In this document: one piece after another, positions 20,844 through 31,675 of the stretch
How positions within the stretch are numbered: position 1 is the stretch's first letter
Layout: the number at the start of each line of letters is the position of its first letter
Origin: Irpex lacteus
Taxonomy: Eukaryota > Basidiomycota > Agaricomycetes > Polyporales > Irpicaceae
Direction: 5' to 3'
DNA: 64,000 bases
NCBI GenBank assembly: GCA_001986395.2
Contig: MQVO02000007.1
Coordinates: 930,001-994,000, forward strand
The notes under the pieces: model-generated
What the model was told of the DNA's origin: nothing
Seen by the model: the letters and a program-made list of their open reading frames with translations, nothing else
Database searches by the model: none
Made by a program: the position numbers and the translations under genes

Positions 20844-23042
20844 TTAGGTGCGCCCAGGGAGAGGATCGACCCATGTCCCGTTAGGCCATAACGTCGCTGG
20901 CATCGTAAAGTCCGCGATCTGGTCTTGGCTTGTATACTGTCAAAGGGAATGTGTTTTCATGAGCAACAGGAATGTAAGCGTTAGCGTAAGTATGAGGGAA
21001 TACTCACTGCCAGCCTGAAGAAATGCGGCACGCCCTCCTTGAGCGCAGCTAACGAGAAATTCGTCGCGGCTCCGATGTACCGCTCGACGTCGTCAACGAG
21101 GAGCGAGAACCCGTCCCACCCCTCGCTCGCGTCCGGGAGGGGACTCCAAGAAATCGTTTGGTTGGCCAGGGGGATGGAGGCGTTGAAGGTCGTTGAGTTG
21201 GTGAGAAATGTCGGGATTTCCGAGCCGAGAGGTGCGTCTCGTCGTAACTAGCATACATGTAATAATGAGTATAACATTCGCTAGTACTGAGGAGAACCAA
21301 CTTACATCCGCCGCCGTCTGCAAAATCGAGTCAAACCCAAACGCAGCCACGCCGTTGAGGAACAACCCCAGCAACAACCCCTGATACACCGCCGACGCCC
21401 TCGTCGGCCACGCCGTGCCCGGCATCAACACAATCGCAATAATATAATGGTGAATCCTCAACTGCAGCCCCGGCAACTGACTAATCACCAACACCACCAG
21501 CCCGCCAAATACATACCACGCCAAATAGTGCGGCAACCACCCCGTCTTGCGGATGATGCGCACCTGGTTGACGACGATGACGACGAGTACGAGTATGATG
21601 ATGATGAGCGCAGTGAGTGCGCCTTCGCGTCCCCGTATATCTTGCGCCGTGAGTCTGTCAATGGGGATCTTGTCAGTCGTGAGGTTGGCTAGTACGCCTA
21701 CCCAGAACGGGCCGAGGAACCACACGGAGGACTCGAGCGGTGCGAGGCGGAAGGCGGGGAGTGTGAACCGCCATGCGACGCGCCAGAAGTAGTATGCGAC
21801 GAACAGCGCAGGGAGGAATGTGCCGAAGGCCTGGTCGAGCGGCGGGGGGTTGTCGCGCGGCTGGGAGAAGAGGGTGATGTGCCAGAAGCCGATGCTGAAG
21901 ATAGACCAGAATGTGATGATGGGTTTGGGGCGGACGACCCAGAAGAGGAGACAGGTGATGAGGACGTTGAAGGCGAGGGCGGCGTTGCGGTAGTCGGTGC
22001 AGTGGGTTAGTTCGGTGGAGGGCTCGAATTGGAAGGAGAGGGGGAACTCGGAGGGGAAGCCGAGGGAGGAGAGGCCGTTGGCGACGGCGGGGAGGTAGTT
22101 TGTGAAGCTTCCAACCAGCGACATGGTCGCACACCCGCCTTTGGAGTCGCTGATCTTTCCACTGCACACAGCGCATCAGCCAATGTTTTGCGTGACATTT
22201 GAACCACACTAAACTCACGCTTGCACAGCAGCAGCGCATATAAAACTGTCCCCTCTGTACGTCTGCTGAGGGTCACCCCCACCAACAATCAGGGGCACGA
22301 AATTCACCCTCTCATCGCCCACCGTCCTCGGATTATGCAGCGTCACCTCACTACACCCCGCCGGACACCTAAACGCAAAGCTCGTATTGCTAAACGGCGC
22401 ACAGTCCCTCCCGTCGAGCCCACACCCGGCGTTCGTCGTCCACCAGACGGACGTACAGGTGATGTACGAGTCGGCAGGGGTGAGCCATGCCTGGGCGCGC
22501 GCGAAGAAGGCCATGCCGATGATGTAGGCTGCGGCGAGGAGGACGAATACCCATTGGGGCTGGAAGAGACGGGTGGCGCGGAGGAGGGTGGGTTCGATGC
22601 TGAGGGTGTAGGTGCGTCCTCGGACGCGGATGGTCGAGCCCAGAAGGGGCGTCGGGTCTGTAGAGTTGGGTTGCGAGTATCATCGGTGACGTTAGAGCTT
22701 ACGGTGTGGTAGAGATAGATTAATACCGTACGCACCTGGTAGGTCTACTTTGGGTCGCGGGCCCTGTATGAACTTCCATACTCGTTGCACAGTGGGGTTG
22801 TACCAGCCCACATAGCTCAGCAGTTGCTCTCTTCGTTTTCCTTGGGGCGAGAGAGAAGCCTGACGGGGAATAGGAGGGTGTCCGTAGCCGAGGATCTCTG
22901 GGTCGTCGTTGCTCGCATGTTGCTTGAGGAATGATTTGGAAGTGGACAGGTCGCTCGCAGAGAGGTTTTCCTCGTCGCCCGGCTTTGCGTACGAGACGTG
23001 TGTGCGAGACGAGCTCGCCGGCGAGTCGGTGAAGTCACCCAT
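20844..23042 (-). CDS. LCCL-domain multipass membrane protein
   Basis: The cytosolic N-terminus (MGDFTDSPASSSRTHVSYAK) leads to a first membrane helix (WVFVLLAAAYIIGMAFFA). A lumenal or extracellular LCCL domain follows, with its cysteine pattern: CGLDGRDCAPF, FRCPAGCSEV, YRGDSFICAAAVQAG and KGGCATMSLVGS. About six more helices come next (NVLITCLLFWVV, LTALIIIILVLVVIVVN, YLAWYVFGGLVVLVIS, GLLLGLFLNGVAAFG). The C-terminus holds several sequons (NST, NAS, NQT, NFS). LCCL-membrane proteins are widespread in fungi with unknown biochemical function. The start is 122 bp from the direct repeat bordering the transposon-like element, so its promoter now abuts that element. Residues are fully consistent with an active gene. 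Confidence 0.9.
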
Positions 23043-23155
23043 GCTGGTCGTTGGGGGTGAGAGTGCAGGGTCAGAGGAGCATGGGGGCGGGAGGCGTGCG
23101 AGTCGGGCGTCGGGAAGGGGCCAGATGATGGCGGTTGCGGATCAGATCTATTTTG

Positions 23156-23164
23156 CGCACTGAT
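23156..23164 (+). repeat. Left copy of 9-bp target-site duplication
   Basis: CGCACTGAT is repeated exactly and in the same orientation at 30679-30687, immediately outside the matching inverted-repeat ends. This is expected of a target-site duplication made on insertion. Nine bp is the usual size for Mutator-like elements. Confidence 0.8.
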
Positions 23165-23302
23165 TAGGCTCGTTCCCAGCCGCTTTCGGATCAGTCGTAC
23201 CTCCTTGATGCGTAAGCGGCTGGAATATCTTGTGCGTGAAACGCGACCCCCTCTCTAAGCGCTGGACCGTGAGAACCAATACTTAGAAAAATCGTGCGTT
23301 CG
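23165..23302 (+). repeat. Left terminal inverted repeat
   Basis: About 138 bp. The outer part (TAGGCTCG..CCAGCC, later CGTACCTCC) matches the right end loosely. The inner 87 bp from 23216 pairs with the right repeat with five mismatches and two 1-bp gaps by hand alignment, sharing the 20-nt run ATATCTTGTGCGTGAAACG plus flanks. A short internal stem (TCTAAG...CTTAGA) is conserved in both ends. Confidence 0.85.
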
Positions 23303-23727
23303 CAACTCCTGCGAACACGCCGACCTCTTATATCTCCCTCGCTCTTCGTATTTTTGATAAACTCATTTATAGAGATTGAAAGGCATTGGATTTAGCTACG
23401 ATAAATATATATACAACAATGCATTTAATGGTGCCCTTCATTCACTGTCGCCCTGGTGTAGTCTAATAACTGCCGGTTGAGATAGCTAAACCTCCCTATA
23501 TCACACAAAGACTGTCCCATAGTGTCGAGAATCATGTAGCATTGCAGTCTGAAGAATACTGTTGTAGAGTGCGAGAAAGAACAATAATGGGGTACCAAAG
23601 CGTTGGTGTACAAGCTCATATGGTGACGTCTGTCTAGTTACCGAAGGTCGCTAGTAGTAATGCATTCAACAAGTGAGGACAATGAAGCAATCAACGACAG
23701 ACTCACCTGAACCCCCGATATTGTATG
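23303..23727. other. Subterminal non-coding part of the element
   Basis: AT-rich, about 425 bp between the left inverted repeat and the stop of the DUF6589 gene, with an ATAAATATATATAC tract near 23400. No gene is seen; it presumably holds the 3' UTR. Confidence 0.5.
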
Positions 23728-26700
23728 CTAGTCGTCGTCTAGTGCGAAATCTTCGTCGTTCTCGAGAGAGAACATCACGGAGGGCTCGGCGGCATCTACT
23801 AAATGCTCCCATAGTGATGTTTCGTCGTCGTCTTCACCATCGCTATCGTCGTTGCTGCCGCTGTTCAATTTATTACGGATGATCACTGGTACAGCTGCTT
23901 CTGACCCTGATGAGCCTTCCGTCACAGACACCGGGACACGAAGGAGAGCTGTAGAGCGCCACTGAGTAATGAGAACCGGAGACAAAAAACATAGTTACGC
24001 ACCTTCGCCAATGAGTGGCTGGGCTCGAAATTGCTCGCGCAGCTGACTAAATTGTTCGTTATAGTCACGCAGAGGTCCTGAAAGCGCTTGAAGCCCTGTT
24101 GTGACGATATTTGGAACCTCGGGAGTGTTGCTTTCCACGGTTCTACCAGGGCGGACGACGTAGACAGCCTTCTCGCGTAAAGATTCGATTAGCTTGCGTA
24201 TGTCCTTGCTAAGGTCCGGTGCGCTGTGTTTTTGCCCAAGATTTGACCCCAGCGTATTGTTCATATGTGTTGCGAGCTGCCGAAGAAGGTCCACACATGG
24301 CGAAATCTTCGCAAGCCATTCCCAGGAACCATTGCTGCCATTGGCGCTGTAGATAGTCTTCGCAATGGTACATTATGTGATGAGCAAGGAGTTCCTTGAT
24401 GATAGAACGCACGAAACATACCTTGATCAAAAGATTCATATGCTCCTGCAGCAGGTCCACCGGAATGAACGAATCTGCAAAACCGGTGGTATTAACAAGC
24501 CAGTTTTTCAGGATAATAATTCTATATGCATTAACATCGTTAAATTTTGGACGTTGAGAACAGGATGCGAACTCACCTAAGCGGCTTTGGCCAGACATGC
24601 TTGAACTTGTGTATCACATGGAGCATCTCGTAGGCATACTTCGTCTTGCCGCACCCGCGATAGGCCATGGCAAAGATCTTGAGACAGATAAGGATACGAC
24701 CTGAATCTCCCGCCTTGATTGCGTCAGTAAACTCACGCACGAGCAAAGCATCGCGCATGAATAATACTGCGTTCTCGAAGACGACGTCCCCAGCAGCTGT
24801 TCGCTCGGACTCCGGTTTTCGTAGTTCCCTTGCTCGTGACGCACGAAGTTTGGTTGCAACTTGTGCTGTAGCAAAACGGTCAACTATTTCAGCAGCGTGA
24901 TCATACAACTGGTTAAATGTTACGGATTCCGAATACTCGTCCAACGAGTCATATCCAGCAACAAGCTCGAGGCAGTGAAAGACCCGTGCGTATAAGGATA
25001 CAAACACCAGATCACGGCAAGTACGATAGGGCGGTAGGGAAGAGAGAACGATGGGTTTGCGAGCAAGGACTGTGTTATGAAGATGAAGGGATCCCGGGTC
25101 TTGAGGACCTTCTGCACTTCCCCAGTGCATTTCGAGTATGCCGGAGAGAATATGGATCTGAGCGTGGAATAGGCCCGGAAAAGTGACCACGTTTGCGAAG
25201 GTTTGTGTGGGATCGTCATCGCCTGCGCGGTTTGCCGTCACAGAGCGTAAGTTCGTTACTGACAGCTGGTCGCCACATACGATCCGGACCTCGTCCATAA
25301 ATTCCGGTGCGGTGATAGACTGCTCTAGCTCTTCGAAAATTGCCTCCATGACCTCAGCATTACCTGTTATAGAGGACTCGTTGATGTTCATAGCCGGAAG
25401 AGGGTATACCTCCGTCTTATGCAGGGGAATCTTGCTGTCGCTGTCGGGCCTACAGCTTTCGAGGTCCTTCTTGAAGCGAACAAAGTTTTCGCCACCTTGA
25501 TTGATAAGAATCCGAAGGATCGAGTGAATGGTGCACTTCCGATGGAATGCCTGCTCGTCAGCAGTAAGAACAATGTCATCGAGAGCGAGAGGCGGAGCGG
25601 TGTTTAGGGAATCTAAGAGAGCCTTCGTGGTCATATCCTCTCGCTGTGCATCAAAGAGAGGGAATATAGTGGCGCACGTGCCGTTCTCCTGTGCTTGGGA
25701 TCGTCCCAAGATTTGTTCTGCGATCTTCATTATCCAGTTAATGTTGTCGTAGACATGTGCGACAGGACCACTTCGAGCGATTTGTCTAGCAGCGGTACGG
25801 CACGAACGAGAAAGGCGATGTAGTAGCCCGTCATAAGGTTTTCGCTTTGTAGTGGGAGGTGATGTATTGCTCATGGTAGAAGGTGTGGATGAGGACGCCG
25901 CTGGCACCGAGTCTGTTGATTGCGCGCTATTTACGCTCGTCTTCATCTTGCCCTTCATCATCTATGTGCCATAGTCGAAAGTAAGCCCACATTCTTTAAC
26001 CAATGACATATATCTGGAAGCTCACTTTAATAAGCAGAGGTTCCTCCTCGCTGTCTTCGTCTGTTACCGACTCTACCGTAATCGAATGGTCGGGGACGGA
26101 GCGCGGTCCAATATCAGGATTAGACTCTGCATCAGAGTCTAACACAGCGCCGTCTGAGTCCCCTGAATCTGGCTCGGGGTCCACTTCGTCTGCGCTCTCG
26201 GAGCAGCTACCAGTAGTACCAGACTTCTGAACTTCAGAGCAGCCTGTCTTGCGAGACGTCGACGCAGCTACCTGAGAAGTGTCACTGCTAACCTCCAAAG
26301 TCTGGGACTGAGACTCCTTGGTTGGCTCCGAGTTGTCCGAACCCGAAGTAATTGTTGAGTAAGCACTGCCAACTCCAAGATGTGCAACGACACTAATTGC
26401 CTGATGAGAAGCTCCAGTTGCGTAAAGGTAGAGTCCAACAATATGCTTGAAATAGCTATTCTGCTGACTTCGTTCGCCTAGGAGAATGAGTGTAGCCGTT
26501 CCTACTCGCTAACGGCATCATAACGTATTGCGGTAAGTGCGCCTGCCAGACCAATACGTATTGTCGGTATGCACTCACATGCTCTTTACGCTGCTCCGTC
26601 TGCTCCGTCTTTGACCCATCTTGCCGTGGTGTTGTGGCCAGCGAATGAAGAAGCGATGTAGTGACAGGACACAGCATCGAAAGCTTTCGGTACAAGCCTG

Positions 26701-27494
26701 TAAGACTGAAGCCCGATATAAAGCTTCTGTCGATGGCCATGGTATGTGACTGGAGTATGTTACTCTTTGTAACCTCATCGCCCTCACGGAGGATCTTCTG
26801 TCTGACATGTTCGACAGCCCAGTTGTTCATCGCCTTCCGTCCCGATTTGCAGTTGTGTCGAGAGGCCCAGTTGTTCAAGACCTGTGACACTTGATCTGCA
26901 GAGTTGAAGAAGCCGTCGTAACGATTATTTGCAGGACACGATGAAGACGGGTCCGAGATCCACTCAATAAGATCTCCCCACGTATGCCCTGCTCTTTGTA
27001 GGCGATCCAAAACGTCCTCGAACACTGTCACGGTACCAGTCGCGGTCTGCATGGGCGGCTCTGGGGCAACCGCAGGAAGATGGAATGGGTCTGGTGTATT
27101 CGCCTCGTTAGAGGGGCCAACGTGGTGAGTATTCATTTCCCTCCATCTGTTACGCTCTCGCCTTTCATTGTAAAAGGTGGATAAAGCTGCCTTCTGGGTT
27201 TTACGCCCCTTCTTTATGCGGATAGCGGTCTGCTCAGCTTTGGTCCCAGCTACTGGTGAACTGCCCTTGAAGTCAGTATGATCGCTCTCATATCCGTCAT
27301 GGGACTTTCGACTAGGTGATCCATGGTATTTTGTAGGTGTGGTAGGAGGGCCTTCAACAGAATGACGTCGTCGGCGTGGTGTTCTGCGAGCACCAGTTAT
27401 TATAATTGTAAGCGCCCGTTCCTTCCGCTATCACAGTCAGTAGGACTTGTGCTTACCGTGGACTTAGTAGTAGCTTGGCTGGATCGTTCTGCAT
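23728..27494 (-). CDS. DUF6589-family protein, candidate transposase of the element
   Basis: Roughly 1,100 residues in eight or so exons. A 5' exon (MQNDPAKLLLSPR) splices into a basic Arg-rich region, then an N-terminal WGDLIEWISDP domain. Core signatures typical of Agaricomycete DUF6589 proteins are KHIVGLYLYATGASHQAISV, ARSGPVAHVYDNINW, VRIVCGDQLSVTNLRS, FPGLFHAQIHIL, ILKNWLVNTTGFADSFIPVD followed by LLQEHMN, and NGSWEWLAKISPCVDLLRQL. Acidic residues in YDNINW (codon 25746-25748), GDQLS (25269-25271) and LLQEHMN (24443-24445) are spaced like a DDE/D catalytic triad; that is inference. A long acidic linker sits between the second exon and the core. The gene faces away from the helicase. The final junction is inferred from frame (GEG joining ALLRVPVS). 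Confidence 0.82.
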
Positions 27495-27699
27495 GGCAGC
27501 ATCAGGGTACTCCTACAGGAAGCTGTGGTGGACGGTGCAGGAGCTTGACAAGTGTAAAATTTTATTCACCCCAGGATGACTAGGCTTTCAATAAATATTT
27601 GCTTCCGCTGATAATGATCGAGTTGGGCAGCCTGGTTTGACCTCAACCTCGACTCTTACCACCATCCCTCACACCTCTCACTTCTCTAACCATCTCATT
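27495..27699. promoter_or_regulatory. Divergent promoter shared by the DUF6589 and RecQ genes
   Basis: Only 205 bp separate the two start codons, so both genes must be driven from here. The helicase side is CT-rich (ACCTCAACCTCGACTCTTACC), a common basidiomycete 5' leader. Such a layout suggests the two products are co-expressed. Confidence 0.6.
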
Positions 27700-30367
27700 A
27701 TGAAGCGCAAGATTCACAAATCGAAATTAAAGCGATTAAGTTCACGCAAAGCGGTCACAGCCGCCCAACAGCGAAAGAAGCTTACACCCGAGCAAATCGA
27801 AGAGCTACGAGAGAAGCTACGTAGCGCATACAAGCGCGAACCATATGATTTTCAAGTAGAGGCAATAAGAGCACAAATAGAAGGTACAGATTTGCTCGTC
27901 CATGCCTCGACTGGTGCTGGAAAGACAACAATCGCCGCGGGGCCACATGTATGGATTCCGGATGGCGTAACACTCATTGCCACACCTCTCATCCAACTTG
28001 CTGAAGAGATGGTATGTTCTTAATCTCTTAATCTTATGTGTTTGTCTTTGGTGAGCTAAAAACACGTCCAGGTGGATACATTCAAGACGGAGTTTGGGCT
28101 GGAGGCGATATCAATCCACAGCAAAAATGGCGCACTGTCTCCTACTGTAGTAAAGGTGAGCAAATATACCTAGACATTAAAATCGAGCCGGGTAACTCTA
28201 ACATGATCATGAAGGACATACTCGAAGGCAAATATAAAGTCATCCTGGCCTCACCCGAAATGATGCAGACGCGCACGTTCATTGACAAGCTTCTTCGCAA
28301 CCAAAGGTTCGCGCGCCGGATAATCGCCCTCTTTGTCGACGAAGCCCACTGTATATCACATTGGGGTGCACAGTTTCGCAAGAAATACGGAACTATGGGG
28401 ACACTGCGTGCCTTCCTGACGGCTTCTACCCCTATCGTTGCTGTCTCCGCCACCTTGACTGCTCGGGTTCGGCGCGACATCCAGTCCAAGCTGCACTTTT
28501 CAAAAGCGAACTCCAGCTTCATTGATATAGGAAATGACCGACCGAATATCTCGCTCGTTGTCCGTGCATGTCAGAATCCCATGAACACGTACTCCGATCT
28601 CGATTTCATTATACCCGACTCCATCACATCTATTGAGGACATCCCGAAAACATGGATCTACGTCGATAATATTGATACCGGCGCCGAAATAATTCGTCAC
28701 TTGCGACTTGTTCTGCGTGAGCGCGGCGCCACGGTGGCTGGAAACGTCATACGCCCTTACAACGCCCGCCTGTCCCTGCCATATCGCCAGAAGGCGATGC
28801 AAAACTTTCGCGATGGGAATATCCGCATCCTAGTCTGTACAGAGGCAGCCGGAATGGTGAGTAAGCCGTTCACAGTAACGAAATACTCACTCATGATAGC
28901 GCTGCAGGGCTGCAACATTCCAGATATCCGTGTCATCGTCCAGTGGAAGCTGCCACGTACTCTATCAAACTTCATCCAGCGTGCTGGGCGCGCAGCACGT
29001 GGCCGAGACCAGGAGGGACTTGCAATATTGCTCGTTGAGCCAACGGCGTACACTGTGATACTTGCTGAGGAATCCACTGAGCCGACGCGTGCACGGAAAG
29101 GGAAGGGAAAGCAGACAGTAGCAGAAAAGGCTCTCTTGAAAGAGTGGGCTATCAGTCACGGATTGAAGCGCGGCGGAAGGAACGAGAACGATGGCGTACC
29201 GACAGGCAAGAGCCCCGTTCTTGATGTCTGCGCCGCGGATGAAGGTCTTCTTGCGTTTGTCCAGAGCGTAACATGTCGCCGCAAGGTATGGGCTGAAATC
29301 TTTGAGTCCACTCGTGATTTAGGTGCGCTGTGACGTACGACTCGGTGTTGTCCAAAACAAGACTGACAAACATGATATCAGTACCCACTGTCCCGTGTTG
29401 TGATATATGCTCACCTTCGTTGTTGGAAAGGACTCGGCCCTCGTCACTAGTCAAGGCATCCACAAGAGCAAAAGCTTTAACGAAAGGAATTCCTTTCGAG
29501 CCTATGCGTTCACGTTTAGAGGACTGGCGGGATGTAGTTTTCGAACGCGATCACAAGTACTCACCGTTGGACTCCACAGCCATCCTCAGTGATGACGACG
29601 TTCTCCATTTGTCGTCTATAGGACCACTAACTGCGGACGTACTCCAGTCAATCTTGAGTGCCTCGTGGCCCTGGTGGGATCGCTACGGTACTGAATTGAC
29701 GGTGCACACCAGGGATATCGAAGTCGTCTTTAAACCACTTCCAAAACCGCCTCGAAAGTCAAAACGTAGCGCCAATGAGCGCAGCAACACCGATAATACC
29801 TCGACAAAAAAGCCTCGCACCACTGTCGAGGTGCCCCAACGGTCCCCCACAGCCGCCGCCCAGTTACCACCGCCACAAAGCGGCTTGCCCTCATTCACCG
29901 GTGCCACACCACCACCCCCACACTCCGAACCGAATACTATCACCGCCAGATTGAGTACTCCGCAGGGTGAACTCGTACCCAGTGCACGCTACGAACCTTC
30001 ATATGGGCATGGCCATTTCACCCAATCTCGGAACCACTTTGTCAGTGGGTCCTTGCCCCAGGGTGCACCTTTCTATCCCCCCCAGCGAGGCCCTGCGACG
30101 GACTCGTCTCATACACAAGACAGCACACTGCAAGGCTTTGCACATGGGCCGCCAACAGCAACCCCACAGCTGTGGCAGCCTGAGTGGCCTCCGGGTGGCC
30201 AGTATTCGATGCACCAGCCTTGGCCATGGCAAGCTGCTCAGTACTACCCTGTGTACTATCCTGCCATGCCTGGTTGGAACACTCCACAAGCCCCCCAAAG
30301 CCAACCATCGTCTTCGACAGCTCATCCACCCGTGGATTATGGTCCAGCCCCGCACCCGCAGCCATGA
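27700..30367 (+). CDS. RecQ-type DNA helicase carried by the mobile element
   Basis: About 810 residues in five exons. Superfamily 2 motifs appear in order: YDFQVEAI (Q-motif region), STGAGKTT (Walker A, residues 71-76), VDEAHCISHWG (DEAH, about residue 174), AVSATLTARV (motif III), LVCTEAAGMGCNIPDI (motif V) and FIQRAGRAARGRDQ (motif VI). DEAHCISHWG is diagnostic of RecQ. A zinc-site remnant follows (CRRKVWAEIFES, then PCCDIC), then a Pro/Gln/Tyr-rich tail of about 200 residues. RecQ helicases unwind 3'-5' and process replication or recombination intermediates. Here a role in excision or gap repair of the element is inferred. Start taken at MKRKIHKSKLKR; an in-frame ATG exists at 27637. Not one of the host's typical full-length RecQ genes: no HRDC domain is seen. 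Confidence 0.9.
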
Positions 30368-30513
30368 TAGTGGACGCACCTTTGGTCGGTTTGTTTTATT
30401 TCTTGTACACAATTGATCTTAATGATAGTAGTTAAAAGTCTTTATTAATCGACATGTGTGCTTGATGCGACGGTGAGGGGGTACTACAGTGAGAGCGTAA
30501 ACGAACAACGAGA

Positions 30514-30678
30514 CGAACGCGCGATTTCTCTAAGTATCGGTTCTCACGGTCCAGCGCTTAGAGGGGGGTCTCGTTTCACGCACAAGATATACCAGTCCGC
30601 TCGCAAGCTCGCGCCTCCCTTTGATGTCTTTGATGGAGGCACGTGGCGGCTTGTGATCGGATCTGGCTGGCGAGTCTA
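30514..30678 (-). repeat. Right terminal inverted repeat
   Basis: About 165 bp read on the minus strand. The inner block (30514-30600) is about 92% identical to the left repeat. The outer block carries the same landmarks (TAGACTCG, CCAGCC, GATCA, CGTGCCTCC) but is longer, with extra bases between CCTCC and GCGAGCGG. The final base is followed directly by the second CGCACTGAT. Confidence 0.85.
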
Positions 30679-30687
30679 CGCACTGAT
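30679..30687 (+). repeat. Right copy of 9-bp target-site duplication
   Basis: CGCACTGAT identical to 23156-23164, directly outside the right inverted repeat. The next bases (AACC versus TAGG at the left end) no longer match, as expected for a duplication ending here. Confidence 0.8.
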
Positions 30688-30866
30688 AACCTTCTCACGA
30701 GATGATCAGGAGAGGTCTTGGATATTCCCTCGATAATCACTGCACGCCACGACCACACGCACCCGAATTTCACGTTTCATCACCCTCGATTTCACGTTCA
30801 TTTCAGGGACTTCCCATCATGGCACTTCATGACACGTCCACCAACGCAGTCAAACTCAAGAATCCC

Positions 30867-30873
30867 TATATAA
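30867..30873 (+). promoter_or_regulatory. TATA box of the small conserved gene
   Basis: TATATAA, 62 bp before the next start codon, in a C/A-rich promoter. Spacing fits a core promoter, and it survives on the host side of the inserted element. Confidence 0.55.
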
Positions 30874-30934
30874 CCCTCAAGGACTCGCATCGATATCGCC
30901 CACCCGTCTCTCTCACTCCAACTAGCATCACACC

Positions 30935-31675
30935 ATGGCCGTCCCAGCTGAGATCAACACGCTCAACCTCTCAGGAAAGTACTCCTTGGTACGTCTCACC
31001 CCTCGTCTCATACGCTCTCTCCAACACTCATACTCTCTCGACAGAACAAGTCTCTCAGCGATGACACAGACAAGATCCTCACCCTCCAAGGTGTCGGCTG
31101 GATGACCCGCAAGGCCATCGCCCTCGCCACGCTCTACGTCACCCTCACCCACAGCACCGAGAACGGCGTCGAGACCCTCATCAACCACCAAGAACTCACA
31201 GGTGGACTCGGCAGCGGGACAGAGACGCGACCACTCGACTGGCAGGACCGCGAAGTCCAGGACAAACTCTTTGGCGATATCGTCACGAAGTCGAGGAGGG
31301 CGCAGGCGGCGGACCTCGAGCATGAGTTCTTGAAGGCGGACTGGACGGAGCATTCGTTGCAGCATGGTGTGATCAACACTATTGGGCACAGTGATACCCC
31401 CAAGAGCGGCAAGACTTGGGTGGCTGAGCAGGTGGGGATTTATGCATATGGGAGTGCGAGTGCATAGTGTTGACGCGATCGAATCTCCATTAGATTTTCG
31501 ATGTCCAGGAGGTTAACAATGAGAGGAGATTCATCAAGCGCATCTACTTCACTGGTCCCAAGGGCGAGGAGGTCACTGCTCGTCAAGTGTTTGACTTCAG
31601 TGAGTCTGTTATGCACGCATGCTTTCTCCACAACGAGCTCATGCCAAAGCCACAGTCGGTCCTCTCGAAGGTTAA
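30935..31675 (+). CDS. Conserved small fungal protein, possibly lipocalin/FABP-like beta-barrel
   Basis: Four exons encode about 170 residues: MAVPAEINTLNLSGKYSL, NKSLSDDTDKILTLQGVGWM, TRKAIALATLYVTLTH, then TGGLGSGTETRPLDW, DTPKSGKTWVAEQ, ERRFIKRIYFTGPKGEEVTA and the end RQVFDFIGPLEG. Each junction restores frame with standard splice sites. The text resembles a conserved cytosolic fungal family with alternating strands (LNLSGKY... GVGW.TRKAI... KTW.AEQ... RR..K.I.FTGP), suggesting a ligand-binding beta-barrel. No enzyme motif is visible and the true function is not known. The inserted element now ends about 250 bp upstream of the start. Confidence 0.8.

Follow-up and report, generated by a model that had tools for sequence, protein, structure and literature searches.

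How does a fungal DNA transposon come to encode a RecQ-like helicase, and which of its genes moves it? The question is raised by a 7514-bp element in a 64,000-nucleotide window of Irpex lacteus DNA (contig MQVO02000007.1, positions 930,001 to 994,000), which contains two genes, one encoding a DUF6589 protein and the other a RecQ-like helicase. Mushroom-forming fungi commonly encode DUF6589, a family to which no function has been assigned, and the element suggests one. We conclude with high confidence that the element is an AcademH-type DNA transposon, intact in structure and probably autonomous, in which DUF6589 is the DDE transposase and the helicase is a needed partner.

Limits, copies and target-site duplications

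The element occupies positions 23165-30678, without strand assignment, and is bounded by a perfect 9-bp direct repeat, CGCACTGAT, at 23156-23164 and 30679-30687. An earlier note, made from the sequence alone, had described a complete element at 23156-30687, immediately outside whose inverted ends lay an exact repeat; the element is complete and the repeat is present on both sides, but that span includes the target-site duplications (TSDs). The element starts with TAGGCTCG and ends with CGAGTCTA. Its left terminus is TAGGCTCGTTC (23165-23175, plus strand), the first 8 bases of which fit TAG[GAT]CTCG, and its right terminus, read on the minus strand, is TAGACTCGCCA (30668-30678). Each terminus is followed by a palindrome, CCAGCCGCTT...AAGCGGCTGG on the left (23176-23223, plus) and its counterpart on the right (30591-30667, minus). 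Further inward lie the inner arms of the terminal inverted repeat (TIR), at 23220-23302 (plus) and 30514-30595 (minus), which align in two blocks: 23248-23302 with 30514-30568 (55 nt, 93%), and 23220-23251 with 30564-30595 (32 nt, 94%). Across 88 bp of this inner inverted block the two ends are 92% identical, in agreement with the inward-running repeats and the block of about 92% identity in the earlier description, and the two divergent, apparently intact genes that it placed inside are the DUF6589 and DEAD/Helicase_C loci.

The TIR is not single in the genome: searches of the 44.3-Mb assembly gave 32 matches to the left end and 40 to the right end, the window's own counted. We took 20 stretches around end matches and nine more that complete other DUF6589 elements; most genomic DUF6589 matches lie outside the stretches taken. 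Copy lengths range from 111 bp to 9.5 kb. A perfect 9-bp TSD flanks 14 of the 18 two-ended copies, and all 14 duplications differ, as had been predicted for further copies. In the other four, C296 has an 8-bp TSD next to a diverged right end, C187 matches at 8 of 9 bases, and C277 and C262a have none; no TSD among the two-ended copies reaches 10 bp. When flanks were deliberately mispaired, none of 306 pairs matched at 9 bp, and with a chance of 4^-9 per pair the 14 perfect matches are not due to chance. Left out of the count are C17 (L029), which repeats C313 down to an identical TSD, and six loci (L020 and L030-L034) whose stretches show one recognised end each. Eleven right-end matches lie outside the copy set (three in C213, two each in C122 and C308, and one each in C40, C37, C170 and at C187:765531). 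The motif TAG[GAT]CTCG fits 35 of the 36 ends of the two-ended copies, a figure that partly reflects selection because the copies were located via such ends; the exception is the right end of C296, TAGTCTGG. When the 865-bp left flank of the window element was compared with the same assembly, it matched only itself, and no insertion-free allele was found there.

The two genes of the element

The DUF6589 gene (PF20231) lies on the minus strand at 23728-27494 and encodes 1131 amino acids in a homology-guided model with six GT-AG introns (27456-27384, 26578-26509, 26025-25962, 24576-24522, 24412-24358, for which 24421 is an alternative donor, and 24002-23949). Splice sites were picked near gaps between homology blocks, and joins with an early stop were discarded; a length-maximising splice model was rejected for its wrong tail. 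When six open reading frames (ORFs) were scanned against Pfam at an E value of 0.1, only DUF6589 (E 4.7e-106), DEAD and Helicase_C were above the cut-off.

The predicted fold of DUF6589 and its conserved D, D and E are as in DDE transposases, and we infer a DDE transposase built on an RNase H-like core, with putative catalytic residues D (in YDN), D (in GDQ) and E (in LQEH). In structural comparisons, Hermes and the P element scored higher than Mutator-like elements (MULEs), with 5-11% identity between DUF6589 and Hermes or the P element. A 9-bp TSD is typical of Mutator/MULE elements, and the element shares with them both this length and long TIRs, so that a MULE with a strongly diverged transposase is what the TSD at first suggests. 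However, neither a MULE nor a MuDR domain appeared in the six ORFs scanned, as expected from the earlier remark that no classical MULE transposase is visible, and because Hermes and the P element also obtain the higher structural scores, we consider a MULE extremely improbable.

Other searches with DUF6589 were less informative. Its profile gave no matches up to E 1 among the sequences of solved structures, a viral structure library gave none at E 0.001 or better, and little was gained from a DDE_1 search or from base composition. Two protein searches, each of which scored just the approximately 8,000 closest candidates, returned at least 324 and at least 170 relatives, and the named matches among those listed were fungal. 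Among these, the nearest named one to the C1 protein is from Irpex lacteus (83%), which would hint at a Polyporales-like host, although transposons can pass from one species to another. The genome itself contains 71 DUF6589 matches, several of which are exons of a single gene. Stops fall within aligned DUF6589 matches in C54b (two) and C308 (four) and within aligned helicase matches in C54 (two) and C229 (three); these stops in other copies may be damage or introns. Should DUF6589 prove to be the transposase of AcademH-type elements, many fungal genes now labelled "hypothetical" would belong to transposons.

The RecQ-like helicase gene (DEAD and Helicase_C) lies on the plus strand at 27700-30367, with approximate exon borders. 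It encodes the stretches ASTGAGKT and DEAHCISHWG, and among solved proteins WRN (6e-18), RecQ, RECQ5 and BLM are nearest to it in sequence; the Pro-rich C-terminal ORF of the locus has no Pfam match. The earlier note had called this gene cargo, in which case the DDE protein alone would move the element and the RecQ gene would be a passenger. Gain or fusion of helicase domains is frequent in fungi, according to a section of PMC10799480, and the two genes vary among families in how they are ordered and oriented: they are divergent in the window, inverted as a pair relative to the ends in C185b and C229, and convergent in C1, C262b and C296. Against a passenger, both genes are present in all 11 long elements tested, namely the window element, seven that had been located by their ends, and a further three (C1, C262b and C296) picked from the DUF6589 list blind to the helicase. 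Identity of these last three to the window proteins falls to 24–26% for DUF6589 and is 27–32% for the main helicase match.

The substitution ratio (dN/dS) points the same way. Five of eight comparisons were usable, dS being finite and both genes sufficiently changed; here the ratio was 0.08-0.146 in DUF6589 and 0.031-0.054 in the helicase, which was lower in all five; the ratios are rough because most dS values are high. Of the remaining three, two had reached saturation in at least one gene, and the third, the recent C308/C54b pair, had ratios of 0.97 and 0.31 with dS at 0.03-0.05. Both genes are thus under purifying selection. A helicase that is kept and constrained in this way is not expected of a passenger, to which we give only a slim chance, and these results suggest that the helicase is part of the transposition machinery.

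Relation to AcademH and a possible mechanism

AcademX elements encode an XPG nuclease; no paper in the literature searched contained both Academ and XPG. KolobokH elements duplicate TTAA at the target, and hAT elements (Hermes) and the P element make 8-bp TSDs and are not known to encode a helicase. AcademH elements have TIRs. The AcademH group of the Academ superfamily reportedly goes back to Kojima 2020, Mob DNA 11:15.

Passages of PMC10045372 assign 9- or 10-bp TSDs to AcademH and TSDs of 3 or 4 bp to AcademX, and tie the difference to the encoded helicase versus nuclease. According to a portion of PMC10799480, AcademH occurs at low copy number in Basidiomycota, Ascomycota and Mucoromycota, and the domains PF00270/PF00271 are those of AcademH, KolobokH or Helitron. 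In an excerpt of PMC9587614, Academ is placed among the DDD/E superfamilies, and KolobokH, the fungal Kolobok, has a RecQ helicase downstream of the transposase domain. The element studied here resembles AcademH in its TSD length, in its helicase and in its DDD/E transposase, the last by predicted fold and conserved D, D and E only. It differs from AcademX in its TSD length, and no nuclease family was above the cut-off in the six ORFs scanned. It shares with KolobokH the combination of a DDD/E transposase and a RecQ helicase in fungi, but its two genes oppose each other and it makes a 9-bp TSD and no TTAA duplication. Unlike hAT elements, its family has 8-bp TSDs in only one of the 18 copies, the one with the diverged right end, and both the low structural-alignment identity and the presence of a helicase separate it from Hermes and the P element. 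We therefore file it as AcademH-like, a placement that is drawn by description (TSD, helicase, DDE, fungal host) rather than by transposase sequence, terminal motif or palindromes.

The earlier note had proposed a new or little-described superfamily, which would have united a DDE transposase, a RecQ helicase and a 9-bp TSD independently of Academ. In its favor, the function of DUF6589 is given as unknown in Pfam, and the word DUF6589 occurs in none of the 5.39 million papers searched, among which no link to a transposon was therefore found. Nevertheless, because helicase-encoding transposons with 9-10-bp TSDs have already been described as AcademH, and the element matches the descriptions in the portions cited (PMC10045372, PMC9587614, PMC10799480) in its fungal host, the length of its TSD, its helicase and its DDE transposase, a new superfamily is unlikely.

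For an AcademH-like element, the transposase would recognise both ends by TAG[GAT]CTCG and the palindrome that follows, excise the element by cut and paste, and join the ends to target positions staggered by 9 bp, and repair of this stagger would produce the duplication. The staggered joining is suggested by the TSDs, the DDE chemistry by the predicted fold, and the need for a helicase by co-occurrence and selection. The helicase most likely opens or remodels DNA at the palindromic ends or resolves the joined product, although its exact step is a guess.

A palindrome lies just inside the terminus at most ends tested. The z scores for single-strand folding of eight ends of four families were -5.4 and -3.9 (left and right ends of the window element), -2.0 and -5.7 (C308), -2.45 and -2.8 (C1), and -1.7 and +0.67 (C296); the values were -3.9 and -2.0 for two short copies folded whole, and -0.3 and +1.4 for two internal controls. 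Both sides of the left-end stem change between the window family and C308/C54b with pairing kept, which is modest evidence because it is effectively one change between families. As double-stranded DNA, the palindromes may be no more than binding sites in inverted orientation. A rather doubtful possibility is that transposition is helicase dependent, with a RecQ-like motor unwinding the end palindromes and the DUF6589 transposase acting on melted or hairpin ends; such a mode would, equally tentatively, stand between ordinary cut-and-paste and the movement of Helitron and IS200/IS605 through single strands or hairpins. The family in this genome is a test bed for asking why some DDE transposons carry a helicase: it comprises several diverged groups and a copy that looks intact, its ends are palindromic and its helicase is constrained.

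Variant copies and the insertion site

The window insertion is flanked by ORFs that read outward, from an ATG at 23042 (minus) and an ATG at about 30936 (plus), with gaps at 23042-23156 and 30687-30936. Because the neighbouring ORFs read away from it, the transposon may sit within their shared promoter.

Copies of 111-119 bp (C313, C187 and C18) were considered as a guide to the minimal ends and dropped. Their internal junctions differ and none was seen at more than one site (C17 being a repeat of C313), so they are possibly post-insertion deletions. Two non-autonomous 931-bp copies, C277:10748-11678 (L022 949-1879) and one in C262 (L023 978-1908), are 100% identical; their flanks differ and neither has a TSD, and movement with target loss or recombination is possible. 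The region C54:1-9000, considered as an allele that might lack the C277 copy, was rejected, as the shared sequence is just 474 bp in the compared stretches.

In L017 (C54) and L027 (C74), a right end of about 78 bp is present as a tandem duplicate with nearly the same junction, the left end is partly repeated, and a single perfect 9-bp TSD lies beyond the outermost ends; template switching at the palindrome is a possibility. A further end type, TAGGCTCGTTAACCAGCC / TAGGCTCGTGAACCAGCC, occurs in L044 (C296) and at the L032 and L034 ends, and adjoins window-type left ends in C57 and C20. Finally, two pairs are mosaic. C185b and C229 (L025 vs L026) are approximately 72-81% alike in the helicase part and 88-95% in the transposase part, and C308 and C54b (L041/L045 vs L040) are 96.5% alike in the helicase half and 84.5% in the other, so the two genes may have been exchanged between elements.
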